This document shows, piece by piece, positions 18,901-58,676 of a stretch of DNA of 64,000 nucleotides; positions within the stretch are counted from its first letter, which is position 1, and every line of letters starts with the position of its first letter. Source of the DNA: Leuctra nigra (taxonomy: Eukaryota; Arthropoda; Insecta; Plecoptera; Leuctridae). A program made the translations under genes and the position numbers. The notes below the pieces were generated by a model. The model saw only the letters and a list, made by a program, of their open reading frames with translations. It did not search any database and was not told where the DNA came from. Location: NCBI GenBank assembly GCA_934045905.1, contig OW203768.1, positions 22,907,060 to 22,971,059 on the forward strand. The letters are read 5' to 3'.

Positions 18901-20688
18901 TTCAATTCCAGGGGATTAATTTTCTTGTAGTTTCTATAAGTAATCTTCCGAATCTCCCTTTTTGGTTTCCGGTAAACTAATGTACAAGATATTAGACAGT
19001 GATCAGTAACTGGCTTTCCACGTGAATCTATGATCTTGGATATGTCTAATACTTTGGTGCTGACTACTGAGTCCTCATCCTGAACGTAGATATGATCAAT
19101 AAGAGTGGAGGTCTGGACTCGACTAACAATACTTCCATCCTGCTGCTGAACATCTTCTTCTGTTATTCTAGACCTATTGTTAGGTAGGTAATTTATAGAT
19201 GAATACATATTATACTATACATATATATATACTCTTTAGATGAATACATGAATGATTGAATGAATGAATGAAACCATGTACTTACTGAGAATGAATGAAT
19301 TACTTTTAATTTATAAGTAGCGACTATAGTACTTTATTATGGTAAAATTAGATTATAATAAAAATTCCCTACACCCTAGATAAAGCATTTTATGCTTAAG
19401 GGTCACTGACAATGCTTGTATACATCACTTGTAATGTTGAAATGGAAATAAACTTACTTATAACAATGCAACAAACAATAGGGATACATCACAAAACAAA
19501 ACAAAACATTATGTAAAACTTCAAGTGGAGTCAGGATGATGAAGGGATGTGTGAAGTGAAAATTCTGTCAAACTTGGACTCAAACCCGGGACTTCTCACT
19601 TGCCGGGTGAGAGCTCTACCAACTACGCTAACAGGCCAGATCTATGGACAGACATCATACAAGAAAGACGCAATCTAGAGCGTCTCAGGTTCGGGACCGG
19701 TTGGGACGGATATTTTTAACTTCACACGTCCTGTCTTGTAAAGAAATGTTACTAACCCGGTGAGAATGTCCTTGTGCAGAAGAATGGTGGAAATCCCCAG
19801 CAGATAATACATGATGTTGTTCAGCAGCCACTCATGCAGATGGTCCATGACTCGGAGACAGAAGTGAACAAAGGGGTTGGAGCTCGTTGGTCTTTCAGGC
19901 CCCGTACTGCCCGCGTAGCTCTGGTACGAGTACATGTACGGTCTCCACGCCAGCGAGCCCATGATCAAAGGGTTCGCGCGCCGGATGTTGTAGATCAACA
20001 TCGGGTTGAACGAACTCACAATCGCTCGGTTGTACAACTCAACGTTGTTCTTGAAAGCATCCAAGATAAACGGAATTAATTTCATGTTGTCGCTCTTCAG
20101 ATCGATGAACATTCGGTAGTCAAAGTCAAGACACAGTTTGATGGCTTCGTCGAAATGTGCGATCTTTTCTCCGGTGAAACGATCGCCGAGAGGATGCTTC
20201 ACGGAGATGTCGAGCTGACTCAGTTCTTCCCACGTCATGTCCTTCACGGTTCCCGACGCATCGCACAGACGATTCACGTCGGAATCGTGAAACAATATCG
20301 GAACGTTGTCTTTGGTGAGAGCAACGTCAAACTCCACGAAAGTACATCCCTTCTCTTTGCTTTTTCGTATCGCAGAGATGCTGTTTTCAGGTGCGTCTAA
20401 ACAAGCGAAACGATGAGCACAGGTCTTCATAAAATAATCGGTAATCGGTTTTCTGTTTTCTTCTGTCGAGCCAGCTGGATCGATGCCCAACATTGATTCA
20501 ACAACAACACGATCAGGTGGAGACACACGAAACACGTGAAGAATGAGGAACAATGTAAATGAGCCGATTATGGCGATAGGAAAAGCACAACAAACTACTT
20601 CCGATGAATATAGCCACACACCGTAAATGTAGAACCATGCCATAAAACAATTCCACGCCACTTCAGTGATTTGAGAGATTTGAGACAT
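15969..20688 (-). CDS. GDE1: GDE1-like glycerophosphodiester phosphodiesterase
   Basis: Two exons (19757-20688 and 15969-16107) join in phase through GG|GTTAGT and TTGTTGCAG|G, giving 356 residues. The protein should hydrolyse glycerophosphodiesters at a membrane. A hydrophobic N-terminal segment (about 33-52) precedes the GDPD domain. That domain shows His92-Arg93, the E-x-D pair Glu119/Asp121 (VEFDV), His134 (ILFHD) and the FIDLKSDN strand. The second exon supplies the C-terminal part of the domain (GIRAMAFTVN, SYLTDTLD) and the stop. Architecture and length match animal GDE1. The usual His-Arg-Gly-Gly start of the catalytic motif reads His-Arg-Phe-Ala here. The 3.6-kb intron holds a LINE and a SINE in the same orientation. 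The start is the ATG that opens the membrane segment; no in-frame upstream ATG was preferred. Confidence 0.85.
16490..19210 (-). mobile_element. 5'-truncated LINE with a long open RT frame, inside the GDE1 intron
   Basis: An uninterrupted 804-codon frame (16794-19208) begins inside an APE-type endonuclease domain (STLIDHIYV, then VTDHCLISC, the conserved D-H motif). It continues through a full reverse transcriptase: motif A LDFTKAFDSIN, motif B GVPQGSSIAPLLF, motif C FADDTQLLY, then a C-terminal thumb. Downstream on the minus strand comes an AATAAA-like signal and a (TTA)n tail at about 16498-16519, as in CR1/Jockey-type LINEs. The missing N-terminus means it cannot move on its own. The open frame suggests recent insertion. 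No target duplication was delimited. Confidence 0.88.
19500..19636 (-). mobile_element. tRNA-derived SINE-like element
   Basis: On the minus strand from 19636 the sequence starts GGCCTGTTAGCGTAGTTGG (A-box-like), then GTAGAGC, an anticodon-like stem CTCAC/GTGAG around CCGGCAA, and GGGTTTGAGTCC (B-box-like). The T stem does not close and no acceptor stem forms, so this is not a functional tRNA. A non-tRNA body follows toward 19500. The boundary on the body side is uncertain. Confidence 0.65.
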
Positions 20689-21107
20689 AGCAATTTATCG
20701 TATTAAGTTTACTTTTTAGGGTGTGGCGTCGGCAGCGTCGCTTCAAGCGTCGTGTCGGTAATTGCGAAACGAAGGTTTGGTTTGACAGAACACTTGTCAC
20801 GAAACGTCAAGTCCAAGAAGAGAAGTGCACGAACAATAAAACCAAAACTCGCAATGTCACTTCACTAAAACACGGGTATGTCCATTGAAAAATTAAACAC
20901 TATGAATTAGAGAAATCCTTCGTAAATAATATTAGTAATTATTGTACTTTGAAATGCAGTATCATCAAGTAGAATATTGAATATGGCGGATCATTGTTTA
21001 CATTTATCTGACCTTGGTCACATATGTTTCCACAGCCTTCATTACATTTGACCATGCGTGACTATGCGCACACCATAGAGGGCATTGTGCGTACACCTAC
21101 GTACACC
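20689..21107. other. 5' flank of the GDE1-like gene
   Basis: The stretch upstream of the start codon is locally GC-richer at 20715-20770 and presumably includes the promoter and leader. No specific element can be called. Confidence 0.35.
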
Positions 21108-23470: not shown

Positions 23471-24640
23471 AATGTCAAGGAACCTGACCAGCAGCCAATC
23501 CGTTTTGTTCAAATACCGTTTTATGATGTGTTAGGTGTCTGTATACCCATACCTACTTCAGATTTTCTTTTTTCTAAACAGTAGATATTCTCCATTTCTT
23601 TTTTGATGCCCTTGTCTTCACGCATTGCGCCAAAACTGTTTTTAGGTTTGTTTTAAAATTAATTCTATATTTATTACCTTTTTTACTTTTTTGTATTAGA
23701 TTTAAATTTGGAGGCATGCCAAATTATGAGAGATATGATTTTAAATTATCAGAGTGTGAAGGTTTAGAAAATAAAGCTAGGTGCTTGAAAATCCAGTTTT
23801 GTGGGTATATAGATAGTCTCCTGGAACGAATTGGGATTTTCATATAAAGGAATAAATTCATAAATTGTACTTAATATATTTTATTGGTAGCCAATGAATA
23901 TTTTATGTTAATAAGATCGTGCATTAAATTAACAATCTTTTAGCAAACATTTCATTCGTAACTAAAAGATATTTATATGAACTGATTTATATTTTAATTA
24001 TCTCTTTATGACACGTACTTATTTGTTTTGCAAATGCATGGACGGACGTAGCATGGTTTTCTTTGTATTCTAGGCTATTTATTTATTACAAATTCATTTT
24101 ACAAGGTTGTTTCAAATCCACATTACGTGGAAAACACTCAGTTAAGCGTTGATGAGCGAGCACCGATACGTCTCCAACCGAACCACATAATCCACATAAC
24201 CAATACTTCCCACAGAAGTGGAATGGGGATGGAAGTGCATGTTGCTCTCAGCCGAATTCAATGGAATGAATGGTTGCTAAAAACGAGGGGTTTTGAGTTT
24301 AGACCGATTTTGCCAAACTTGACTTAATATATGCTGGCAGGTAAAAATAGGGCAATAGGTACGTTATTACTGATTTTATTGCAACTTTCCAATTTATACA
24401 CTCTAGAATAATTAAAAATAACAGATCTGCATCAAACCCCCTCAAATTTAAGAAAATGTTGGTCCATATCGCCATGCAAAATTTAAACTCAATCGGAACA
24501 TTTTAATTTTCTGCCAAAGAAACTATTTTAAGCAACTGGAGGAATTAAGGTCAAACGGTGTGTGCTACAGGCCATTTTCATGTTTAAACCAATCAAAGGG
24601 CAGCGCTCAAAGTCAATAGGATTATTAAGTCAAAATGATA
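23471..24640. other. Intergenic stretch with a dispersed-repeat end
   Basis: Mostly AT-rich without a gene. Positions 24127-24180 carry the dispersed end motif GCGTTGATGAGCGAGCACC. Other copies are at about 32813-32870 (minus), 39976-40020, 43034-43085, 55532-55600, 55966-56015 and 62865-62925 (minus). Confidence 0.5.
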
Positions 24641-24732
24641 TGGCGTCATAGATCTAGATGATGACGTCATTGATCTAGATGATGACGTCATTGCTCCGGA
24701 TGATGACGTCATTTATCTTGAAGACGACGTCA
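24641..24732 (-). promoter_or_regulatory. 21-bp tandem repeat with CRE octamers at the takeout stop codon
   Basis: Three perfect TGACGTCA octamers lie at 24662-24669, 24683-24690 and 24704-24711, exactly 21 bp apart. Degenerate units at 24641-24648 and 24725-24732 extend the phase. The last unit overlaps the TGA stop codon of the takeout-like gene. TGACGTCA is the CREB/ATF palindrome. Whether it is bound, or is only a short satellite in the 3' UTR, cannot be told from sequence. Confidence 0.7.
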
Positions 24733-27700
24733 CTTGGGCGGGTAGATCTCATCGAAGGGAACTCGATCGTTGAGGAACATCGCTATCGACTTGAAAATCT
24801 CTCCTTGAGCATTTCCCATTGAAGGACCGAACTCGTCGAACAAGACTCGCCAATTGTCGTTCATCAGTTGGTTCATGGTCGTTCCTGCGCAATACAAACA
24901 CAATCATGGTCGTTCCTGCGCAACACAAACACAATCATAGTCGTTCCTGCGCAATACAAACACAATCATAGTCGTTCCTGCGCAACACAAACACAATCAT
25001 GGTCGTTCCTGCGCAACACAAACACAATCATGGTCGTTCCTGCGCAACACAAACACAATCATAGTCGTTCCTGCGCAATACAAACACAATAATGGTCGTT
25101 CCTGCGCAATACAAACACTTTCATGGTCGTTCCTGCGCAACACAAACACAATCATGGTCGTTCCTGCGCAACAAAAACACAATCATGGTTGTTCCTGCGC
25201 AACACAAACACAATCATGGTCGTTCCTGCGCAACAGAAACACAATCATGTTCATTCCTGCGCAAGACAAACACAATCATAGTCGTTCCTGCGCAATACAA
25301 ACACAATCATGGTCGTTCCTGCGCAATACAAACACTTTCATGGTCGTTCCTGCGCAACACAAGCACAATCATGGTCGGTTCTGCGCAATACAAACACAAT
25401 CATAGTCGTTCCGGCGCAATACAAACACAATCATGGTCGTTCCTGCGCAACACAAACACAATTATGGTCGTTCCTGCGCAACACAAACACAATCATAGTC
25501 GTTCCTGCGCAATACAAACACAATCATGGTCGTTCCTGCGCAATACAAACACTTTCATGGTCGTTCCTGCGCAACACAAACACAATCATGGTCGTTCCTG
25601 CGCAATACAAACACAATCATGGTCGTTCCTGCGCAACAGAAACACAATCATGTTCATTCCTGCGCAATACAAACACAATCATAGTCGTTCCTGCGCAATA
25701 CAAACACAATCATGGTCGTTCCTGCGCAATACAAACACTTTCATGGTCGTTCCTGCGCAACACAAACACAATCATGGTCGGTTCTGCGCAACACAAACAC
25801 AATCATGTTCGTTCCTGCGCAATACAAACACAATCATAGTCGTTCCTGCGCAATACAAACACAATCATGGTCGTTCCTGCGCAACAAAAACACAATCATG
25901 GTCGTTCCTGCGCAACACAAACACAATCATGGTCGTTCCTGCGCAACAGAAACACAATCATGTTCATTCCTGCGCAAGACAAACACAATCATAGTCGTTC
26001 CTGCGCAATACAAACACAATCATGGTCGTTCCTGCGCAATACAAACACTTTCATGGTCGTTCCTGCGCAACACAAGCACAATCATGGTCGGTTCTGCGCA
26101 ATACAAACACAATCATAGTCGTTCCTGCGCAATACAAACACAATCATGGTCGTTCCTGCGCAACACAAACACAATTATGGTCGTTCCTGCGCAACACAAA
26201 CACAATCATGGTCGTTCCTGCGCAACACAAACACAATCATGGTCGTTCCTGCGCAACACAAACACAATCATAGTCGTTCCTGCGCAATACAAACACAATC
26301 ATGGTCGTTCCTGCGCAACACAAACACAATCATGGTCGTTCCTGCGCAACACAAACACAATCATAGTCGTTCCTGCGCAATACAAACACAATCATGGTCG
26401 TTCCTGCGCAATACAAACACTTTCATGGTCGTTCCTGCGCAACACAAACACAATCATGGTCGTTCCTGCGCAACAAAAACACAATCATGGTCGTTCCTGC
26501 GCAACACAAACACAATCATGGTCGTTCCTGCGCAACAGAAACACAATCATGTTCATTCCTGCGCAATACAAACACAATCATAGTCGTTCCTGCGCAATAC
26601 AAACACAATCATGGTCGTTCCTGCGCAATACAAACACTTTCATGGTCGTTCCTGCGCAACACAAACACAATCATGGTCGTTCCTGCGCAACAAAAACACA
26701 ATCATGGTCGTTCCTGCGCAACACAAACACAATCATGGTCGTTCCTGCGCAACAGAAACACAATCATGTTCATTCCTGCGCAATACAAACACAATCATAG
26801 TCGTTCCTGCGCAATACAAATACAATCATGGTCGTTCCTGCGCAATACAAACACAATCATGGTCGTTCCTGCGCAACACAAACACAATCATGGTCGTTCC
26901 TGCGCAATACAAACACAATCATAGTCGTTCCTGCGCAATACAAACACAATCATGGTCGTTCCTGCGCAATACAAACACAATCATGGTCGTTCCTGCGCAA
27001 CACAAACACAATCATGGTCGTTCCTGCGCAACACAAACACAATCATGTTCGTTCCTGCGCAACACACACACACAATCATGGTTGTTCCTGAGCAACACAA
27101 ACACAATCATGTTCGTTCCTGAGCAACACAAACACAATCATGTTCGTTCCTGCGGAACACAAACACAATCAAGGTCGTTCCTGCGCAACACAAACACAAT
27201 CATGGTCTTTCCTGCGCAATACAAACAGTATAAATCACGATAATTGCAAAACTACTGCCCAATAGTTGCGTGATGGCATTTTCCTCATTTAAGTTATTAT
27301 TCTACAAAAATCTTTAAATTAAGGCTATTTTCAATAATTTTACATTCTTCCTGAGGTTTTAGGAGCAATTTAAGTCAAGTATTCAAGGATCAATACAATG
27401 TTTTCCTGTGTTATCTTATGGGGTAAAGTGGATCTACAATTAAGAATATACGGTAAGGAGCATATATTTTTTGCTAGTTGTATGATGAATTACAATAAAT
27501 TATCATTCCTATGACGTAACCCTGGAACCCCCTTAGATAATCTATAAGAATGTAATACTTTTTTTTAATATAATTTAATATTTAAATACTTATTATACTT
27601 ATTATTTTTATTATACCTATTTAATATCCTTTTAGGCTTTGATTTCAGTGGTGAACTAGCATTGTTTTCCTAGTCCAATGCTAGTTCAGCAATGTCATTG

Positions 27701-30700
27701 ATACAGCTATGACCTGGACTTCAAATTACGGTACAAGTGGTTTGTGATATTAAAATTAAGGGTCCATAACTTCATAAGGCTTGGTTCCGGTTCCGGTTGT
27801 CCTTATCAAAAAGCTATAACGGTTAAGGTTCCGATACCGGTTCTAAAATACACGGGTTCTTTTCTGTTTTCGATTCTACGTTCCCTGAGAAAAGTATAGC
27901 CTCGTCATTTAAATCAGATTGCATTGAGTGAACATACCCAAGAGTTTGTCTCCATTGAAGAGGTTGTCGAAGCTGTAGTGCGCACGCTCCGTGGTGGCCT
28001 TGGCAGTCGCTGCGCCCAGCACGGAGTACCTCTTCCCGTCCGGTTTCACCTTCAGCGTGTAGTTGCACAGCGTTGTCACGCGGAAGTTGTCTGCAACAGA
28101 GGAGTGTTTGAACTCGACGAGTGCCACGCCGTTCGATTCTCCTTCTTTTACAAGACACAGCATTTACCGCGTGTCATGACTCTGGCCCGAAGCCGCTGCA
28201 GCGAGGAGTGGAAGAGTCACGTGACATGGGGCACGCAAAGCTCTGCCCGAGCATTCATCTATCTATCTATATAAAGTAGAATGTCTGTCTGTCTATCTGT
28301 CTGTGTGTTGTTCATACATTCCTACACCCTTTGACAGATCTCAACTTCAGTGTTGGGTAGGAACGGAACGAAATAGTTCCGTTCCTAGGAAATAGTTCCT
28401 TTTCTTAGGAACTATGGAACGTCTTAGTTCCTTTTATCTAGGGAGGAACTATGGAACGGTTTAGTTCCTTTTTTTTGAGAAACTGTAACGATTATTGCAA
28501 AGTTCATTTTTTTTAAACTTGGCTGTAGTATTAACTTGGCTTTACTCCGAAAAATTTGGCATCTAAAAATAACTCATACCGAATCTTCTTATCTCTCTTA
28601 TAATCTTTTCGAATCTGCTGTGATACAATGATTCAATTTTTATTTTTTAATTTTAATTTGCAGATTGCAATTTTTAATGATCCAATTAAAATGACACCTT
28701 TCTTTAAAAAGGGACTAAAAGGAACTAAGTTCCTTTTATAAAGGAACTAGGAACGGAATAGTTCCTTTCATTATTGAAGGAACTGTAACTGGAACTAGTT
28801 CCTTTTTTCGGCGAGGAACTTATAACTGGAACTAGTTCCTTTTCAAAAGGAGCTTACACTGCTCAACTTTCACATCTTTGCCTTACCGACAAGGGCGTAT
28901 ACAGGATGAAATTTCGGCGGGGGGGGGGGGGGGGCAGACATTACTAATGTTTTGAAAAATCACAATGGTAAAAAGTGGATTCGGGGGCACAGCCCCCGAG
29001 AAAAATTTGGATCAAGGTCATTCATTAAGCAGCAGCTATTTTGGGGAATTATAAATGACAAAATATCCCAAAATTGGTCTAAGGGCCAGTCTTTCAATAC
29101 TCTGCTATCTTTTAAACGGTTGCGGGTTGATTTGGACTTTAAATTGTCATGGCAACAGCCAATGACATTCCTAAAATGACCACTAACAAACTGTTTATAG
29201 CTAATTGAGACTTTGGCAGAGTATTGAAAGACATGGCCAAGAAGTTTAAGAATTGGTAAATTTATGCAAGTCCGGGGCGCATATCCCCGGAATTTTTTGG
29301 GGAATTTTAACTCAATTCTAACCATTTTGGACATGATCTGTCTATTTTTAAGTGTTTTTTTTATACATCCCTTGCTTACCGAATGTGATGTTCGCCTTTC
29401 CACGGCCGGAGAATGGCAAGTTGAACATCTTCCCCTGCATGTCGTAGTTTCCTACCATCTCATTGCGAGGATGGAAGCAGGTGTATTTCACGACCTGGTT
29501 CTTGAAGTCGACACTGAAACCATCAACAACGCTCGATCAGTCTTGGCGAGGGATTTTCAGTGTGGAAAAACACAGAGCTTTGTTGTTTTTTTCTTGGAGG
29601 TGAGAAAAATTGAGTTTTTGGGGGAAAAAATCAAAACTATTAGGTATTTTATTGTTTCGTAATAACTTTTTATGTTCAAATTGTATATTGGAGGATTTAA
29701 ACTATATTTTGGTATCAGCATTATACTTAGGAGTGGAGAATGTAGATTTTAATGTACAGTCAATCAAAATTTTGCTGAAAGACTTTCTTTTTTGCATAGT
29801 ATGGAAAAATTAATTCGTCGTGTAGGTAGGTAAAAACAAAAAAAATGCGAAATATACGCTAAAATCAATTTTTCCCAAAATGCCCGTTTTTTCCGGAAAA
29901 AAAACGATTTCTTTCCTCAAGATTTCTTGGTTCGGAAATTTTGGAACCCTAGTCCTTGCTCGGATCATTTTGATGTTCATATGGGTACCGAGGGAAACGA
30001 ATAACTATTGCGCTACCGCAAGGAATTATTGGAACAAATGTTTTGACAGTAATGGCGGCATGTATGTATTTTACAGATTGATTACAAGCATTTCGTTCAT
30101 TATTAACGACTGAGATGGACGTAGTAAATAATGTTTTTGAAGTGAAAACATGTTCATCTTAGTTACTAGAGGGACCCGTCATGTAAAACATGACCAATGT
30201 GCACCAGTGAGTTATGCGTAAATATAAAACGACAGCAATATTTGTCAGCAGAGTGTGCGTCGTTAATACATTTGACGTCGTTGATGACCCAATCTTAACA
30301 GAAAGCGTTAAAAAATGAGGAACGAAGAAAAGCAATTTGATCATACCTATTATGGTAAAACAATTTCATATAAGTTTTCAAATTTACACCAGAGTATTCG
30401 TACTAAGTAAAAATAAGAAAAAAACAATGTATGCGCCGTAAAAAAAAATATATATATATTCATTACGTTGATACCGTGACCTGATGCCCACGGCCTTTTC
30501 TTCATTTGTTATGCTATTACATGTTATCTACGGCTTCATTTTATTATACGTTCCTCAGATGTAGGGCGGAAGTAAATTTGTTTGATTTGCGGTGCACAAT
30601 TTTGGATTGTAATCAAGCTCTATCAAGTACCGTTTCACTGATGTTAACAAATAACGTTATATTGAAGTATTCTCTTACAATAACTCATGTCACCATTACA

Positions 30701-33700
30701 AATGATTGGTTGATGTCAGAAATACTGTTCATATTGAAATGGACTTCAGCCGTTCTACCACTAATTAAAGTATAGATATTCAGTTAACAATGTAAAACTT
30801 AAACATTGGTGCTTCAAACTTTATCAACAGCAACACGAATTCGTTGTCAATACATGACTCAATACAGACCACTCTACGAAATAAGAAACGACTGAAAATG
30901 ATTAATCTAACAACATTATTTAAAAACTTCGTCGGTTAGTTGGTTTGAGGGTTACAGAACCGTGTTGATTAAATGTAGGAAGAAAATAATACGTTTGATC
31001 GTTTGCAAATTGCATCTTGAGGCCAATGTTAAAAATCTATCGGCTTTGTTTGGTTTTCATGGCCCTCTAAAATACAGATCAAATGAAATTTTTTAAAAAT
31101 TACACTTTGACGTTTCTTGGAGTAAAGAAGTTTTCTATGTAATGTCTCTTTTGAACGGTTATTATGTGTTATAGTAGATTTTTTACACACTCAAAGGGAT
31201 AAGGATTACGTTTTAGGTAAGTTATGGTTATTTCTTTACTTTGCGAAGGCAAAAGACGTATTTTTAGACACGATTGGCAATGAAAGGCCACCATTTTAAA
31301 TACAAAATAGTGCCGTTTTCAATATAATGTAAAGATTTGGACCGTTATTCTGTGTTAAAATACATTTCTTATAAACACAAAGGGATAAGGATTGCCATTT
31401 AGGTAAGTTTCAGTTATTTATTTATGCACAAAGAGCAGAAGATGTATTTTGGACATGATTTGGGCAATGTAACGTCGACCATTTTAATTTTAAATACAAC
31501 ATAGAGAGTGTGCGCGCGAAATTGAGAGGATGCGCGCGCAGGCGTTCCTGACACACAGACAGAACTGCGTAACTATAGGCAGCGTGTTTAGACAACAGAT
31601 GGCACTGCAAAAGTACAGACAGAGCCACCTAATCTGTGGGAAGGAAGCTTACCTTTTGGCAAGGCGTCCAAGTCGCTGCAGTTATATGTTATGTTGCTGC
31701 ACATATTACGCATTATCAATTCTTAAAATTTACACAAGTTTATCTAATGATTATTCGCCTACAAAATATTAACAACAAAGTGTTCACAATTTCACTAAAT
31801 CTGATCACAATATTAATTTGCGCGACTAAGTTCTGATTCCGAAATATTTTGAGTACATTTGTTGACATCTGATCGGTTGCTAGGTCACGGCCAATGAGAA
31901 ATAAAACAGTTGACGATCTTCCCACAAATGTTGCTAATTTCTCTCACTCGTGGCGAACACTCGGTGCCTATAAGTAAGATTTCAATTTGGAAAAACTTTA
32001 GCTAACTAGGTACCTATGTTTTCACATAAATCTACCTACTTGGCACATTTCAAACAACTTCAGACCTTCAGCCAAGGATAATAAAATATAGGTGAAACAT
32101 ATTTTACTACCTTTGACCTTCAGCAAACAATTTCTTCACCTCATCGAATAGCCAAATGCTCTGAAAGCCATTGAATGAATAAATGGTCGTATCCATTTAA
32201 CTCCATTGCAAATCACTTGAACAAAGGCGAGAAGCGTATAAAAACGCACATTTCGGCCACTGGATCTGGGTGTCACGTCCCGCAATGTTTTTGGCCACCT
32301 CACCGGTCATCCTCGTAGCGTATACGATTATGATTGAGCGAGCGAAGCGGTTTTTTGGCACGGACCTCTTTATTATTCTGTAATTTTTTTCTGTTACTGG
32401 AGCTATACGTACATGTATCCTGCAGGTCACAGTTTTAATCCGATCGATCTGAAATTTTGCACACTTGTACGGACCATCTCTGAGCGTTGCAGACCTTTTT
32501 TTAAAATCCGTTGATTAGGCCGAATCCGGGATTTTAAAGTTATAGAATTACTACCCTGGACCCTTACCTAATATCGCCAATATTTTAGTAGCACCGTGTT
32601 ACTGTAGCACGATCGGCTAGTTGCCATGGCGACAATGCTAATTCTTATGACTAAAACTTTTAAAACAAAAGTTGTGCTACAGTAACACGGTGCTTCTGAA
32701 ATATGGCGATATTAGGTAAGGGTCCTGGGTCATTGTGTTGGTTGACAACCTACCCTAGCGAGAGTTACATCTACCCAAGACAGGTAGTTGCTGGTGGATT
32801 GTTTGGTTTTGGGTGTTCCATTTCGGTGCTCGCTCATCAACGCATTTTTCTGAGCGTTTTCCTAGTTATGAATTATGGAGGTATGATTATGAATGACTCA
32901 CTCGTATTCTTCCAGAACGACCTTCGACATTCCCAGGACCTGCAAGTCGGTGAAGGTCGTGGCGATTTTGAACGCGCCGGAGTTCGAACTCAGGCTCAGT
33001 TTCTTGATGAAAAATGGATCCAAGTTGGGAAGGTTGTACTTCGGATCGCCTGGAATCAAGTCAGATCATGAAAATTACATTTATATGTTACCTACTTCAG
33101 AAGGACGGAAGTCCATTTGCCCTATATTGCGTTGCACACTTTTGGAATGATGCTATTGTATTGTATTGTATTGTATTGTAATGTATTTTATTATCATCCC
33201 GTGGACAAGTACATAATACATGTATGGGTATCGTCAGTTGTTGAGTAAGATATAAGATATAAGAATGTATGTACAAGTTATAACAAAGTCAGAAATATTT
33301 ACAAGTCAAAACATTGACAGTTTTATGTACAGTTAAAAATAAAACTAATAAATATTAATAATAATAAAACTAACATAGAAAGATAAATAAAACTAATACT
33401 AATAGAACTATAGATGATGGTACAAGATGATATTGACACTGAATGTCAATATCAATACTATCAATATCAATATCAATATCAATATCAATACTGAATTGAT
33501 CAATGACTGTTGTCAACAATTTCAGTTATATTGAAGTATTCTCTTACACGATGATGTCACCATACACAAATTAATGGATGCAGAATTACTGGTTTATGAG
33601 CTCACCTCAAGAATCATTGAAATGGACTTCCCAGCCTTCTATACCTGTGACGTACACCCATCAAATCATAAAACGGTATTTGAACAGATTATGGCTGCTG

Positions 33701-36700
33701 GTCAGGTGCATTGACAATCAATCCTTGTCATTATCAATGAAATCAGAGCTCACCTACTCTAGGTATAGATGACGAGTATAAGCAAAGCATAGACTTCATC
33801 GGATGATGCCATCACATTTTTTTCAGACAATCCACTTCTTTCAAATACCGTTTTATGATTTGTCGAGTGTACATATTTTTTTATGGATAACTATTATTGT
33901 GAAAATATCACGTTCTTCTACGCTATTCTTTTTTTACTTTTCCAGAATTTCTCCATTCAAATAAAGTGTAATTAATCTCTTCTGATTTTCCAACGTGTTA
34001 ATTACCTATGTAATATCTTAAAGCTTTTTGCGTACCAGAGGTCAAATGTACTCCAGTGTGTAGCATAATTTCGTACAGTTTGTTTAAATGTGCGTCAACT
34101 CTTTGAATTTTGAAAAATTCTGCTCGCGCGGTGAAAAAACTGGAAAAAACACTTTGAAGAGCCGCGCGCGTCCTGTAATACCTTACCGAGGGCCTCTTTG
34201 ATTTACCTTTGATAACGAAGGGAAGTGCATCTCTGCCGTTCTTGGTCGCACATTGTTTGAAGTCAGGACGCGATCTTGCACATGGCTTCAGGTAGGAGGC
34301 TGCAAATACATCAAGTAAGACAAGATCAACATGTTGTCGAAATAATACAAACACAGGAGGCCAATTCTTGATACCGCACGTTTTGAAATCATTCCCGTTT
34401 TCATTGTTTAAAACTTGAAATAGTCGACATCAACTTTTAAAGTTTGGTTTCAAAACGTGAAAGCTCAAGAATTGGGCTCAGGGGGGACTTTATTGGTGAG
34501 TTATTGGATTAGTTATGCTATTTTTTAAGGGACTTTCAGTCCAATGTCTAATGAAAAATCTAATATTAGTGTTGTGAAATGTCGTTAATGGACCACGAAG
34601 ACTTGAGAAAGAGATGAGGAAAACAGAAAGTATGCACGGTTCATTATTCAGATTCTCCTCTTCTGGGACAGGATTGATAGATATAACCCCATTAAAGTCA
34701 CTCAGTTTAAAAGCAACATAAATCATTTATCACTAAAAAGGGTGAAAAATGAAATAAAATCATGTTTTCGCCAATAAAATCATTGGTACACGAAACGATA
34801 CAACAATTATTTTAAGTTTGTATTTAGCTTTTCAAATATAAATATATATTGTGACTTATTATTTGTTGTCATAATTCTTTGGCAGTTGGCACACGAAACG
34901 ATACAACATTTTCTTTTAATATTAAAAATTAAATTTAAATGATTAAAAATAAAAAGTATGAATGGAGTAAAGGTAGATTTTATAAACTAGACCAAGTTCT
35001 GGCACTCTATTCGTACTGTGTCGACTGTTTATTTGCCCAACAATTTCAGGCGGTGTGTTTTTAATTAAACTTTAGATAGTTCTTAATCCATAGCCTCAAG
35101 CAAGCATTTAGTTATTCCAATTATTAGCAATTATGTGGCATTTAATTTTAAATTGCTATCGTATTTTCTCATGATGTATTTTTCATGAAGTTAATATCTT
35201 CAAAATAAATAAACGGATGAAATATAATTTGCGTCATCACGTAATAGTAGCGGCGTAACAGATACCTGCAGGCCTATTCTCAATGTCAGACAATGCCAGT
35301 TTTAAGAGGTTTCCTGGTAACCGTGCAACGTAAAATTATAGAGGGGCATAATATTTATAACTATACTATTTTTTCTGGCGTTTACGTCATGTATCAAGTA
35401 CCATTTTAATTTTAGAAATATCTAAACACTAGGAAAAAGTTCTGCAATGAAAGAGAATACCTTGAAAACGTATAATCATGCAAATTTACCTAAATTTAAT
35501 GAATAAATGTTTTTCCCAATGAAAACACAACATATAAATTTGATCGGGCAAATGGTTCATTTTCACTGTGGAATCAATCAGATATTCATATAAATATCTA
35601 AGCATGTAAGCAAATTGCTATATGTATAAAAAATATAATAAATTAAAAAACTAATGAATAAACTTTGTAATTATTCATTTCTTAGTTCACGATAAATTAT
35701 AAAACAAGACAATTCTTTGAACTTCTACGTAAACTCAAGAAAAGTGGCAACAGGTTATTTAGTTACCCACCTAGTTTATAATTTTATCCATAGTGTTTAA
35801 ATGTAACTTTATTATCTTTTTTTTTATATATATTTAGAATCTTTGTACAATGCGATACCTGGATAGTCAATTTTTAATTTGTTTTCTTCCATTTAATTTT
35901 TCAAGATACCTGAAGAAGGCCTGTGAAACAGGACGTAATAATGTATTATCTAATAATTAATAAGTTTACGTAGAAGTTCAAAGAATTGTCTTGTTATATA
36001 ATGAATAAACCACTCTAAATTCAGAACATTCTGGAAATGCATAAACATAAGCCCCGCATAGTATCAGTAAGTATAACCCCATAAAAAACACTTCGTGTAA
36101 AAATACCAGCCAAGTCTCTTAAACTAAAAAAAATATAAGAAATCTAAAAATTCAGCACTGAAAAGTAGTGATATCAAAAAATTGGCCAAGTCAAAATTAT
36201 TCAAAAAATACTTTGCGCATCGTGCATAAATAGTATAGAAGTAGGCCGTAAATCAAATATACTCATCTATACATATATTATACACTAAAAAAACGATGCG
36301 CCAAGTATTTTTTGAATAATTTTGACTTGGCCAATCTTTTGATATCACTACTTTTCAGTGCTGAATTTTTAGATTTCTTATATTTTTTTAGTTTAAGAGA
36401 CTTGGCTGGTATTTTTACACGAAGTGTTTTTTATGGGGATATCACTCCTTTTTTCAGTTTATTCTTACAACTTCTATTGTGGTACCAAAGTCTATAATTC
36501 CTTTAAAAAATACGCCTTTGTGATTTGGTTCCTAAGAAAAGTTGTGCTTGTTACTATGTATGCTATTATTAATATGCTATGAAGTATAGCAAAAGTTTCG
36601 ATCCAATCGGTCCAGCCGTTCTCGAGTTATGACATCACTTCCGGTTTTCAAAATGGCGGCTGACGTCACTGCCACCTAAAAATTGTACCTATAAATGCTA

Positions 36701-44117: not shown

Positions 44118-45825
44118 TTTAGAACACAAAGTACCTCTCTTCCAATCTGTAGACTTAACTGTGGTTATATTACACACTTAAAAGCTCGCATTAATGGAAA
44201 TAAGTTGACATTGTGTTTCAAGGACACAAAGTACCTCGCTTCAAATCTATAGACTCAACTGTGGTTATATTACACACATGAGAGCTCGCATTGATGGAAA
44301 TAAGTTGACATTGTGTTTCAAGAACACAAAGTACCTCGCTTCAAATCTATAGACTCAACTGTGGTTATATTACACACTTGAGAGCTCGCATTGATGGAAA
44401 TAAGTTGACATTGTGTTTCAAGAACACAAAGTACCTCGCTTCAAATCTATAGACTCAACTGTGGTTATATTACACACATGAGAGCTCGCATTGATGGAAA
44501 TAAGTTGACATTGTGTTTCAAGAACACAAAGTACCTCGCTTCAAATCTATAGACTCAACTGTGGTTATATTACACACATGAGAGCTCGCATTGATGGAAA
44601 TAAGTTGACATTGTGTTTCAAGAACACAAAGTACCTCGCTTCAAATCTATAGACTCAACTGTGGTTATATTACACACTTGAGAGCTCGCATTGATGGAAA
44701 TAAGTTGACATTGTGTTTCAAGAACACAAAGTACCTCGCTTCAAATCTATAGACTCAACTGTGGTTATATTACACACTTGAGAGCTCGCATTGATGGAAA
44801 TAAGTTGACATTGTGTTTCAAGAACACAAAGTACCTCGCTTCAAATCTATAGACTCAACTGTGGTTATATTACACACATGAGAGCTCGCATTGATGGAAA
44901 TAAGTTGACATTGTGTTTCAAGAACACAAAGTACCTCGCTTCAAATCTATAGACTCAACTGTGGTTATATTACACACTTGAGAGCTCGCATTGATGGAAA
45001 TAAGTTGACATTGTGTTTCAAGAACACAAAGTACCTCGCTTCAAATCTATAGACTCAACTGTGGTTATATTACACACATGAGAGCTCGCATTGATGGAAA
45101 TAAGTTGACATTGTGTTTCAAGAACACAAAGTACCTAGCTTCAAATCTATAGACTTAACTGTGGTTATATTACACACTTGAGAGCTCGCATTGATGGAAA
45201 TAAGCTGACATTGTGTTTCAAGAACACAAAGTACCTCGCTTCAAATCTATAGACTCAACTGTGGTTATATTACACACTTGAGAGCTCGCATTGATGGAAA
45301 TAAGTTGACATTGTGTTTCAAGAACACAAAGTACCTCGCTTCAAATCTATAGACTCAACTGTGGTTATATTACACACATGAGAGCTCGCATTGATGGAAA
45401 TAAGTTGACATTGTGTTTCAAGAACACAAAGTACCTCGCTTCAAATCTATAGACTCAACTGTGGTTATATTACACACTTGAGAGCTCGCATTGATGGAAA
45501 TTTGTTGACATTGTGTTTCAAGAACACAAAGTACCTCGCTTCAAATCTAAAGACTCAACTGTGGTTATATTACACACATGAGAGCTCGCATTGATGGAAA
45601 TAAGTTGACATTGTGTTTCAAGAACACAAAGTACCTCGCTTCAAATCTATAGACTCAACTGTGGTTATATTACACACATGAGAGCTCGCATTGATGGAAA
45701 TAAGTTGACATTGTGTTTCAAGAACACAAAGTACCTCGCTTTAAATCTATAGACTCAACTGTGGTTATATTACACACTTGAGAGCTCGCATTGATAGAAA
45801 TATGTTGACATTGTGTATCTATAAC
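44118..45825. repeat. 100-bp satellite array 1
   Basis: About 17 head-to-tail copies of a 100-bp monomer containing GAACACAAAGTACCTCGCTT, AGACTCAACTGTGG and GAGAGCTCGCATTGATGG. Copies are nearly identical in the middle and diverge at the first and last units, as expected for unequal exchange. A two-state site (ACACATG or ACACTTG) varies along the array without a simple period. Confidence 0.95.
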
Positions 45826-47385: not shown

Positions 47386-48783
47386 TTATATATTTTTTAT
47401 TTAAAACTCTGCCAACAACAATTGTTGGTTGCCAACAAAGACACAGAATAATACACAACAAAAATGAAAAGATAACTAAATTAACAAAATCATGAGAAGT
47501 GACTAAAATTAGGTAATAAACATTTGAACTATGAAATTAATGATATAAATGGTTTTTCAAAATAATAACTGATCTCCTAATTACATCTATAACTATACTA
47601 TTTAACAAAGTCTTATGCAACTTGTGCTTCACTACAAATGCTTTCAAAAATCCAGGAATTGTTCCTCGTGACCCAACCATTAGTCCTACGATGTCGACAT
47701 GAAGCAAACCATACATTCTTGAGTATTCCCCTATAGTTGGTTCATAATACTTCCGTTTTTCTTCATCAACTTCTTCAGGTTGATTTTTATGTGATTCGAA
47801 CCTAATGGTTGGGTCGATGATTAAGCCGTGTTTTTTTAGATTGTCGATTACAATAATGTCAATGCGTTTAGACCCTCCAAAGCACGTAACTTCTTCATAG
47901 ACGTCGAATTTGTTCTTTTCTCTAAACGCATTGGCAATCATTGTTCGGACGGAATTATGTCTCGCGATTTGTAGAAGTTCTCCGTGCTGGCAGAAGTTCA
48001 GGACGTGTCCAAGGGTTTCTATCTCAGTGCAATGTCTGCACTGGTTTATACCGCCCTGACTTCTGCCGTGTAACACTCGAACTGGGGCTACATTTGCCGT
48101 CATTTTAATTGCATCTCTCCACTCACTGCAAGTTAAACCATTCCGTTTATTTATCCAGTTGTTTGTTGGAGTATGTTCGCTGAACAAAATTACCCCTTTA
48201 CCCTTTTGTGTGAGTTCGCACCATCTTTCATACTCCCTATCTCGTAAGTGTTCACGAATAACAGATGGTTTAGGGTAAGATTTATTCGGATCTTTTGACA
48301 ACGAATCGATGTTTATTCCAAGTTTGGTGGCACAATTTTGGCGCTCTCCTGTCAAATTCCTCGTGCTGACGACATACTTATTACAGGACTTTTCCAACAC
48401 ATTACAAACGTTGTAGTGCTGTATGTATGCTTCCCATCGTGCTCGAAATAATTGCAGACCTTTGTGTTTATTTGCTGAGTAAATCATACTGGCCGGCGTG
48501 TCTCCAGGAATGCACAAGATGTCCTTCAAAGCACTTCTTATTATCTTATCAACATCATCCAAAAATTTTGAGGTAAGCTGTACGAAAGGTGCGTTTTGAA
48601 ATGGGTAAACAAGGGTAGGCCAGACGTAAATATTTAAAATATTTAACTTCTGATCTGCTTTCAAAAGTGGAGATTTCACTAAAGCTTCTATGTTGGTACG
48701 AAGCGAAGAAATCACCTTCTCGTGGTTGAAGACAATCCCACGATTGAAGTTTACTCCTAAGTACTTGATAGATTCATCCTGTA
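47386..48783 (-). mobile_element. 5'-truncated LINE fragment with restriction-like endonuclease
   Basis: An open frame runs from about 48780 to 47537. It starts in the RT thumb (IKYLGVNF), passes a segment with IYVWPTLVYPFQNAPF, and then shows a zinc-knuckle-like CRHC...GHVLNFC, RH, and a PD-(D/E)xK-like block KRIDIIVID followed by GLIIDPTIRFE. This order is that of site-specific early-branching LINEs (R2/R4/NeSL group). All upstream RT motifs are missing. Comparison with the near-empty copy at 50485-50510 places the insertion between CATCCCACT and TAATCT. Confidence 0.8.
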
Positions 48784-49680
48784 GTAATCTCTGAATTCAT
48801 GCAAATATACATTTCGTAACAAAACAAAACTTTAGTTTATTGCAAATTGGCGGTAGCCAATTTCAGATTAGCTTTGAAATCTATGCCAAAACTAGGACCG
48901 ATTCTGGTAAATCTAGTTTCTACGGCAAAAATAGATGACGAAAGCAACACTCGAATTTAAGCAAATATTTCGGAGGTGGAGTGTTTGCGATTACATCGCA
49001 AAACGACGATATCTACTGGAATTGGCGTTGTGATCAATTGTTTTCATATCGATAGCTGTGAAATAATTGTATAAATAATATAACAATTCTTCACTCAATC
49101 ACGTATTGCTAGACCGTAAGGTTCATTATCCCGCACCTTTAACATAGGAATCTCGCCCTTATCAATATAACACACAGAAGCCATTTAAATTATTTGAAGT
49201 TTTTTCACTTTCCTGACAACATTTTTAAAATCTGAGTTCACATTCGAATTCAGCGTGAAAATTGGAGGTAACCACTCTAAAATTCAACTGTCTACTTGCA
49301 AAAATGAGAGAGAAAGACCGATTCTAAAATTCGTGAATTAGTTCAGATTTAATGCCATAGTAACAACGTTAGAGCAACCTCGATCTTGCACGTGAAGTCA
49401 ACGCAGAGAAAATAATTTTATTTGAACGATGATTACCGTTAATCCAAGCATTCTAGAGAAAAGTGTTTCAAACAAAAAACACTCACAATAGGATAATACA
49501 TCGGTTAAAAGATTGAATTTGACGAATCCTGTTCAAACAGAGGAGAGAAAAATCCTGGGACCTCGTATGTAATGGCATAATTCATATTGATCATCACACA
49601 TTTGTGAACTCGAATTGATGATACGAGTGAGCCTAGTGTGTATAAGATAGAACCATATAATTCTGAGAAAATATTTATTT
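48784..49680. repeat. Dispersed repeat block, right half, copy A
   Basis: Homologous to 50500-51485 and to 62950-64000 in the same orientation. Landmark words are TAGGACCGATTCTGG, CACGTATTGCTAGACC and ATCTCGCCCTTATC. It has no coding potential. The block may be part of a larger non-autonomous element; its true ends are not visible. Confidence 0.85.
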
Positions 49681-53130: not shown

Positions 53131-54708
53131 TTTATCGCATACACATTGTTGAATTTAAAATAACAATACGAGGTCGTCTGTGTGTTAATACACGCCAATC
53201 CCATTTCTCAGTTGTATCTGAAGTCTTCTGGCTATCGCATACACATTGTTGAATTTAAAATAACAATACGAGGTCGACGGTGTGTTGATACACGCCAATC
53301 CGATTTCTCAGTTGTATCTGAAGTCTTCTGGCTATCGCATACACATTGTTGAATTTAAAATAACAATACGAGGTCGACGGTGTGTTGATACACGCCAATC
53401 CGATTTCTCAGTTGTATCTGAAGTCTTCTGGCTATCGCATACACATTGTTGAATTTAAAATAACAATACGAGGTCGACGGTGTGTTGATACACGCCAATC
53501 CGATTTCTCAGTTGTATCTGAAGTCTTCTGGCTATCGCATACACATTGTTGAATTTAAAATAACAATACGAGGTCGTCTGTGTGTTAATACACGCCAATC
53601 CGATTTCTCAGTTGTATCTGAAGTCTTCTGGCTATCGCATACACATTGTTGAATTTAAAATAACAATACGAGGTCGACGGTGTGTTGATACACGCCAATC
53701 CGATTTCTCAGTTGTATCTGAAGTCTTCTGGCTATCGCATACACATTGTTGAATTTAAAATAACAATACGAGGTCGTCTGTGTGTTGATACACGCCAATC
53801 CGATTTCTCAGTTGTATCTGAAGTCTTCTGGCTATCGCATACACATTGTTGAATTTAAAATAACAATACGAGGTCGTCTGTGTGTTGATACACGCCAATC
53901 CGATTTCTCAGTTGTATCTGAAGTCTTCTGGCTATCGCATACACATTGTTGAATTTAAAATAACAATACGAGGTCGTCTGTGTGTTGATACACGCCAATC
54001 CGATTTCTCAGTTGTATCTGAAGTCTTCTGGCTATCGCATACACATTGTTGAATTTAAAATAACAATACGAGGTCGTCTGTGTGTTGATACACGCCAATC
54101 CGATTTCTCAGTTGTATCTGAAGTCTTCTGGCTATCGCATACACATTGTTGAATTTAAAATAACAATACGAGGTCGTCTGTGTGTTGATACACGCCAATC
54201 CGATTTCTCAGTTGTATCTGAAGTCTTCTGGCTATCGCATACACATTGTTGAGTTTAAAATAACAATACGAGGTCGTCTGTGTGTTAATACACGCCAATC
54301 CGATTTCTCAGTTGTATCTGAAGTCTTCTGGCTATCGCATACACATTGTTGAATTTAAAATAACAATACGAGGTCGTATGTGTGTTGATACACGCCAATC
54401 CGATTTCTCAGTTGTATCTGAAGTCTTCTGGCTATCGCATACACATTGTTGAATTTAAAATAACAATACGAGGTCGTCTGTGTGTTGATACACGCCAATC
54501 CGATTTCTCAGTTGTATCTGAAGTCTTCTGGCTATCGCATACACATTGTTGAATTTAAAATAACAATACGAGGTCGTCTGTGTGTTAATACACGCCAATC
54601 CGATTTCTCAGTTGTATCTGAAGTCTTCTGGCAATCGCATACACATTGTTGAATTTAAAATAACAATACGAGGTCGTCTGTGTGTTAATACACGCCAATC
54701 CGATTTAA
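53131..54708. repeat. 100-bp satellite array 2
   Basis: About 16 head-to-tail copies of a 100-bp monomer containing ATCGCATACACATTGTTGAA, TAACAATACGAGGTCG, TACACGCCAATCCGATTTC and TATCTGAAGTCTTCTGGC. Variants at GGTCGTCTGTG or GGTCGACGGTG and TTAATA or TTGATA mark sub-blocks: the ACGG type is clustered at the left end. Confidence 0.95.
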
Positions 54709-57849: not shown

Positions 57850-58676
57850 AAGTACTCAATGAGGTCTCGAATACACAGAATGAATGCTCCAATTGTTTCC
57901 GAGGTCTGTAGTGTAACACACACAGATCAAAACATTTTACAATCACTTCGAGGTCTCGAATACACAGAATGAATGCTCCAATTGTTTCCGAGGTCTGTAG
58001 TATAACACACACATATCAAAATATTTTACAATCACTTCGAGGTCTCGAATACACAGAATGAATGCTCCAATTGTTTCCGAGGTCTGTAGTGTAACACACA
58101 CAGATCAAAATATTTTACAATCACTTCGAGGTCTCGAATACACAGAATGAATGTTCCAATTGTTTTTGAGGTCTGTAGTGTAACACACACAGATCAAAAT
58201 ATTTTACAATCACTTCGAGGTCTCGAATACACAGAATGAATGTTCCAATTGTTTCCGAGGTCTGTAGTGTAACACACACAGATCAAAATATTTTACAATC
58301 ACTTCGAGGTCTCGAATACACAGAATGAATGTTCCAATTGTTTCCGAGGTCTGTAGTGTAACACACACAGATCAAAATATTTTACAATCACTTCGAGGTC
58401 TCGAATACACAGAATGAATGTTCCAATTGTTTCCGAGGTCTGTAGTATAACACACACAGATCAAAATATTTTACAATCAGTCACTTCGAGGTCTCGAATA
58501 CACAGAATAATTGCTCCAATTGTTTCCGAGGTCTGTAGTATAACACACACAGATCAAAATATTTTACAATCAGTCACTTCGAGGTCTCGAATACACAGAA
58601 TGAATGCTCCAATTGTTTCCGAGGTCTGTAGTATAACACACACATATCAAAATATTTTACAATCACTTCGAGGTCT
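57850..58676. repeat. 89-bp satellite array 3
   Basis: About nine head-to-tail units with GAGGTCTCGAATACACAG, CCAATTGTTTCCGAGGTC and GTAACACACACAGATC. Period is 89 bp over most of the array; the last units have a 4-bp insertion (CAGTCACTTC for CACTTC). Confidence 0.93.

Follow-up and report, generated by a model that had tools for sequence, protein, structure and literature searches.

A 31-bp minisatellite repeats the acceptor region of the last exon of a takeout gene in the insect Leuctra nigra

Tandem repeats at exon boundaries are a known kind of sequence. The name 'mirages' was coined for those of amphioxus Adh3; globins and TnC also carry them, and PGBD5 contains imperfect repeats of a similar kind (PMC3087553, PMC3902484; here and below, papers are cited for those portions of their text that were available). 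RT-PCR of amphioxus Adh3 and globin transcripts suggests regular splicing, and many of the repeats carry splice signals (PMC3087553; PMC3902484 likewise). In human segmental duplications, variable minisatellites lie at exon–intron boundaries of young paralogs, with 27 intron modifications described (PMC2812944). Here we describe a relative of these arrays in a takeout gene of Leuctra nigra, in which the junction between intron 5 and the last exon is present as 76 acceptor-like copies. The window, meaning the whole stretch of DNA analysed, comprises 64,000 nt of contig OW203768.1 (positions 22907060-22971059; assembly of 536 Mb). Compared with the described cases, the novelty lies in the insect host, in the scale and in how abundant such arrays are.

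The array is hosted by a takeout (JHBP) gene on the minus strand of the window. The PF06585 profile matches exons 4–6, roughly joined, with E=1.5e-30 (106.6 bits against a cut-off of 29.2), PDB entry 3e8t matches the same roughly joined exons with E 2e-12, and nine homologous proteins, including ones from Homalodisca, Schistocerca, Locusta, aphids and Rhodnius, are 29–37% identical to the product. Exons 2–6 (our own numbering) are five coding exons in a single consistent frame, separated by GT–AG introns. Exon 2 is the first coding exon found, and no upstream exon encoding the signal peptide was found. The parts of the gene are as follows, exons 2–4 being placed by translation, splice sites and tblastn.

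34207..34299, minus strand, takeout exon 2, the first coding exon found
32902..33049, minus strand, takeout exon 3
29380..29513, minus strand, takeout exon 4
27938..28090, minus strand, takeout exon 5, ending ...CTCTTGG with donor G/GTATGT, after the invariant DNLFNGDKLLG
24885..27937, minus strand, takeout intron 5, 3053 nt, phase 1, with the array at its end
24730..24884, minus strand, takeout exon 6, the intact C-terminal coding exon, with stop codon TGA at 24732-24730

Directly after the stop codon lies a separate 21-bp repeat of 4.4 copies (24640-24732, minus strand). It contains three perfect TGACGTCA sites, at 24711, 24690 and 24669; we take TGACGTCA to be a CRE-type site.

The array begins 710 nt from exon 5 and runs into the last exon.

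24873..27227, minus strand, minisatellite of 31-bp units with 76 acceptor-like copies (Tandem Repeats Finder and unit-by-unit walk)
27212..27213, minus strand, AG of the 5'-most decoy acceptor (unit walk and AG scan)
24885..24886, minus strand, AG of the 3'-most acceptor, taken as authentic, where homology to nine takeout-family proteins starts

Tandem Repeats Finder (TRF) reports 24873-27227 with period 31, 75.9 copies and a score of 3943. Walking the array unit by unit resolves 76 head-to-tail acceptor-like units, that is, 75 decoys plus the authentic site, in agreement with an earlier note on this DNA that had estimated about 75 decoy 3' splice sites in front of the last takeout exon. The spacing is 31 nt throughout, with the exception of one 33-nt step. 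Each unit joins the last 19 nt of intron 5, ending GCGCAG (altered in a few units), to the first 12 nt of exon 6, GAACGACCATGA; this bears out the amplification of the junction itself, which the note had also proposed. The splice dinucleotide is, as claimed, kept in nearly all units: AG is present in 75 of 76, and the remaining decoy reads CG. Each unit also contains a candidate full acceptor module consisting of ATGAT, a T/G-rich tract and CAG, in which the second A of ATGAT, 20 nt upstream of the exon, is a predicted possible branch point.

There are 24 distinct unit types. Each of the six 5'-most units is unique, and the others share types in blocks. Units 15–21 are repeated exactly as units 22–28, and a 9-unit block recurs 23 units further on with a single change, the loss of an AG. 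These block duplications suggest past instability in the length of the array. At its 5' edge stands ATCGTGATTTATACTG, in the exon CATGAACC; the TGA common to both is likely to mark the breakpoints of the first duplication. A whole-genome DNA search, made with a tool that skips very common words, found the 31-bp array nowhere else.

Two other kinds of multiplied splice site offer a comparison. In NAGNAG tandem acceptors, neighbouring near-equal AG sites compete; these involve two sites and a 3-nt shift, whereas the present array has 76 units at 31-nt steps, each with its own candidate branch point. The human gene IFI6 (6-16) reportedly contains a minisatellite with multiple splice donor sites, a multiplication of the same kind but of donors rather than acceptors. 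On its anatomy we file the window array as a mirage: the repeats are head-to-tail and of minisatellite length, the unit spans a boundary together with its splice signal, exons 2–6 are open and conserved, and homology begins at the last acceptor. The amphioxus mirages in Adh3, BflGb6, BflGb9 and TnC likewise lie over an exon–intron boundary, and many of their repeats copy the splice signal. The mirages occur at both 5' and 3' boundaries, and the BflGb6 repeats unite the 3' end of an intron with the 5' part of an exon, as here (PMC3087553, PMC3902484). Copy number differs, the BflGb6 haplotypes having 6 and 3 units against 76 units of 31 bp in the window and 33 of 163 bp at a paralog. Unlike those of amphioxus, the present arrays are in an insect, occur also over stop codons and are numerous within one gene family. 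The human boundary minisatellites have 4 repeats on average, far below the copy numbers here, and are described as altering splicing and forming novel introns (PMC2812944); the human case speaks against assuming that such arrays are harmless. Our literature search, in which subscription journals were thinly covered and earlier insect reports may have been missed, found no paper joining 'takeout gene' and 'minisatellite'; among the listings, the amphioxus papers, the human boundary study and IFI6 came closest.

By protein homology and by the intron position in paralogs, the 3'-most copy is the authentic acceptor, which bears out the identification made in the note. All nine homologues match exon 6 in tblastn, the matches starting at 24885, and the exon-5 matches, seen in five of the nine, end at 27936. 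In the protein alignment the exon 5/6 junction follows the invariant block DNLFNGDKLLG. We read by eye the whole intron of six paralogs picked for having separate exons 5 and 6 (L031-L036). The position and phase of intron 5 are identical in all six and none of them contains the 31-bp array; two short intronic repeats are present in L033, and the stop end of L035 has a 22-bp doublet. In other takeout paralogs the profile match continues uninterrupted across the intron-5 position, so these appear to have no intron there. We infer that the 3'-most acceptor is the one actually used.

The reading that we favour, at a probability of roughly 0.63, is that the array is a mirage: the 3'-most copy remains the acceptor, and the decoys are tolerated through exon definition in a long intron. 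A short stretch across the intron 5/exon 6 junction would have been tandemly duplicated, and the duplicate would have grown further, sometimes by several units at once. The 3'-most copy would have stayed joined to the real exon as its acceptor, and the other 75 would have become intron. According to work mainly on 5' splice sites, the site with the shortest distance prevails, measured across the exon under exon definition and across the intron under intron definition, with the switch between the two at flanking introns of 200–250 nt (PMC9225289). As long introns favour exon definition, exons here would be recognised as units and the decoys tolerated; with an intact copy on the exon side and a long intron, this would be the simplest account. 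If the exon-side copies were unused, many array-bearing genes would be damaged. Exon definition also predicts more leak with shorter units. With a unit of only 31 nt the nearest decoys would barely lengthen the exon, so that some leaky use is expected and this array would be the hardest case.

Several points weigh against this reading. Exon 6 is a terminal exon without a downstream donor, and proximity across the exon could apply to it only by analogy. PMC9225289 recounts the classic intron-side rule of Reed and Maniatis, under which the 5'-most decoy would have the advantage. Human boundary minisatellites are reported to generate alternative splicing and novel introns (PMC2812944), which lowers our confidence in tolerated decoys and raises it in their regulated use. 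The authentic acceptor has pyrimidines at 10 of 17 positions, equal to both decoys compared. On four measures its predicted openness ranks 17, 46, 9 and 27 of 76 over a 150-nt span, and 22, 23, 24 and 31 of 76 over a 300-nt span.

Secondary structure was considered as the selector of the acceptor and rejected. Four units of RNA fold with a z of -3.2, and 8-unit tandem arrays fold equally well in 57 of 300 cases when built from dinucleotide-shuffled units and in 65 of 300 when built from mononucleotide-shuffled ones; the authentic site is not especially open.

Other takeout exons carry arrays too. A takeout profile search of the genome, with 150 of 344 candidate places scored, showed takeout exon pieces at 163-bp steps on C8.

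C8:32005887-32011241 (L029 1088-6442), array in a takeout paralog, 163-bp unit, 32.9 copies (about 33)

The L029 unit consists of the last 30 nt of an intron and almost the whole of exon 4. Only the 3'-most copy is followed by the donor GGTGAGT; 32 copies run into the next intron tail. The neighbouring L030 has 3.9 copies. The next exon-6 match downstream of L029 on the same strand, L045, has its own 113-bp acceptor array and probably belongs to the L029 gene. By eye, a 15-bp array of 20.9 copies begins a few nucleotides past the exon 5 donor of L029.

Forty further stretches were taken from the profile list before their sequence was seen, although L045 was chosen as lying behind L029 and the list already showed two overlapping L041 matches. 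Outside the window and the L029/L030 runs the list has 114 places, of which 63 were covered and 51 were not. Together with eight earlier stretches this gave 48 stretches with 65 exon matches. TRF, at a score of 60 and a period of at least 7, returned 36 rows, some overlapping on one array: 16 cross an exon edge, and the 20 that do not all score at most 230. We then applied a stricter cut (score 200 and period 20), set after the first TRF results, and left out L029 and L030, which had been chosen for their arrays. In the remaining 46 stretches, with 63 exons, there are 14 high-scoring arrays; every one of the 14 has a visible end within an exon match, and 13 reach 5 nt or more across the exon edge. 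Random placement yields a mean of 3.8 arrays ending in an exon match and a maximum of 11 in 20,000 trials (exon matches make up 18.7% of the 46 stretches), a comparison qualified by the shared ancestry of the paralogs, the derivation of edges from profile matches, the late cut, the simple null and the higher GC content of exons (54% versus 42% overall).

Five of the 14 are acceptor arrays (L044, L045, L055, L061 and L064), with a less clean one in L041. The L042 array spans the downstream end of an internal exon match, and those in L038, L052, L054, L057, L062 and L072 cover the end of the last exon and the stop codon and continue into the 3' flank. The remaining array, with a 20-bp unit and also in L052, merely adjoins an acceptor. 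This T/G-rich array (L052 273-401) ends exactly at the exon 6 acceptor and repeats without a decoy AG. The seven clean acceptor arrays, L029 and L030 included with the five above, have an intact copy adjoining the exon, and AG is present in 54 of 54 sites, which were located with a motif that favours AG. Across the acceptor units of takeout paralogs and the window, the intron part measures 19 to 47 nt by our own count, about the room for a branch point, tract and AG. Copy numbers at most paralog loci are lower limits, since the array continues past the end of the fetched stretch.

How frequent arrays are outside takeout was gauged in 264 kb around the window, which holds 23 arrays covering 6.7%. 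We judged by eye 97 open frames of at least 44 residues at the ends of non-takeout arrays and tested six by Pfam. Two belong to recognisable genes.

L016 9520-9717, minus strand, strumpellin exon (PF10266, 2.8e-27)
L017:9413-L018:616, acceptor array of a quiver-like exon, 118-bp unit, 10.2 copies

The strumpellin donor region comprises 8 units, spaced at 23-bp steps with one exception. CAG/GT is kept in four of the eight, including the exon-side copy, and the others read CATGT. The quiver-like exon matches the quiver family PF17064 on an extended reading (28.1 bits against a cut-off of 27.3), its short piece being unmatched, and a homologue search with the quiver-like protein gave no match. 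The remaining Pfam-tested frames gave none above cut-off. With takeout included, three of the 23 arrays in the 264 kb lie at exon edges with a family match and one by eye. A frame at L017:7727-7929 looks Ly6-like by eye and has no Pfam match.

Arrays away from known exons are also common. The window holds three more long minisatellites (44121-45816, 53133-54706 and 57861-58676, with units of 100, 100 and 89 bp), whose ends show no exon by eye. Profile searches for trypsins (150 scored of 1343 candidates; 150 of 161 matches listed) and P450s (92 scored of 835 candidates), which are blind to arrays holding part of an exon, revealed no L029-like runs among the matches listed.

Recurrence in takeout, strumpellin and quiver-like genes fits a tolerated class of exon-edge arrays better than a switch specific to takeout. 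Tentatively, and with the odds somewhat against it, we suggest that exon-edge minisatellites are a genome-wide class here, with something at exon edges seeding or maintaining them. Duplications might start preferentially at exon edges, where GC-rich exon stands beside AT-rich intron, or through a mechanism linked to transcription and to splicing close to the branch point. Maintenance might instead come from a conserved exon-side copy that repeatedly homogenises the array anew, whereas free intronic arrays degenerate.

Use of a decoy would harm the protein. Among 84 AG dinucleotides scanned in 24840-27235 (76 junctions and 8 others), 65 would add 24 codons and then a stop, and splicing to the decoy closest to exon 6 would give a 55-codon wrong tail, the products that the note had predicted; the C-terminus would be truncated or frame-shifted. 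It is conceivable, although we think it unlikely, that the array damages the gene, with decoys winning often and this takeout copy being a weak or dying allele in a redundant family. Intron-side proximity would favour the upstream acceptors, and in so large a family (150 of 344 candidate places were scored, with each exon and array copy counted separately) the loss of one copy could be tolerated. The gene nevertheless retains five coding exons in frame, canonical splice sites and an intact, conserved C-terminus, and array-bearing paralogs also have open exons in the pieces seen.

A second alternative is the splicing rheostat raised in the note, in which regulation acts on how often decoys are used, and the level of full-length takeout depends on array length or on a bound factor. 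We regard it as rather improbable. It draws on the near-identity or identity of the decoys to the authentic site, on the truncation or shift of the C-terminus that their use would cause, and on the boundary minisatellites of human paralogs, which can generate alternative splicing (PMC2812944). In RNA, the UGUUUGUGUUG repeat could bind UG/U-rich regulators of 3' splice sites. The conservation of AG is, however, not in excess. A hand count gives 25 distinct variant states over 31 unit sites, with one in the two AG sites against 1.6 expected by chance (P(<=1)=0.51, a weak test on young units). We thus have no evidence of selection keeping the decoy AGs, whose conservation is no more than young, homogenised units would show. 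Exon-edge arrays very unlike this one in sequence also occur at other exons, in other genes and over stop codons; the last offer no splicing choice, which counts against a rheostat. As folding does not single out the authentic copy either, the proposal finds no support here. That the assembler inflated or created the copy number is very improbable: long arrays are often mis-sized in assemblies, but here the 24 unit types follow an ordered pattern and the 5' units have diverged, and arrays of other periods occur at many other loci.

Elsewhere in the window, a seemingly intronless frame of 339 codons (19675-20694, minus strand) matches glycerophosphodiester phosphodiesterase (PF03009), and a 419-codon open frame (47537-48796, minus strand) without a Pfam match looks by eye like part of a retroelement. 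Searches of the window for RNA families at gathering scores and for tRNAs returned none.

How the spliceosome chooses among near-identical acceptors is an old question, usually posed with few competing sites in constructs. One genome here offers natural tests of that choice, with 76 acceptors at 31-nt steps, 33 at 163-nt steps, and arrays over a donor and over stop codons. Long-read RNA from one insect would measure proximity across the exon against proximity across the intron over a large range. The arrays extend mirages from amphioxus to an insect and point to exon edges as a frequent site of minisatellites, with a bearing on intron gain and on gene prediction. If the genome-wide class proved real, it would amount to a natural library of experiments in splice-site competition.
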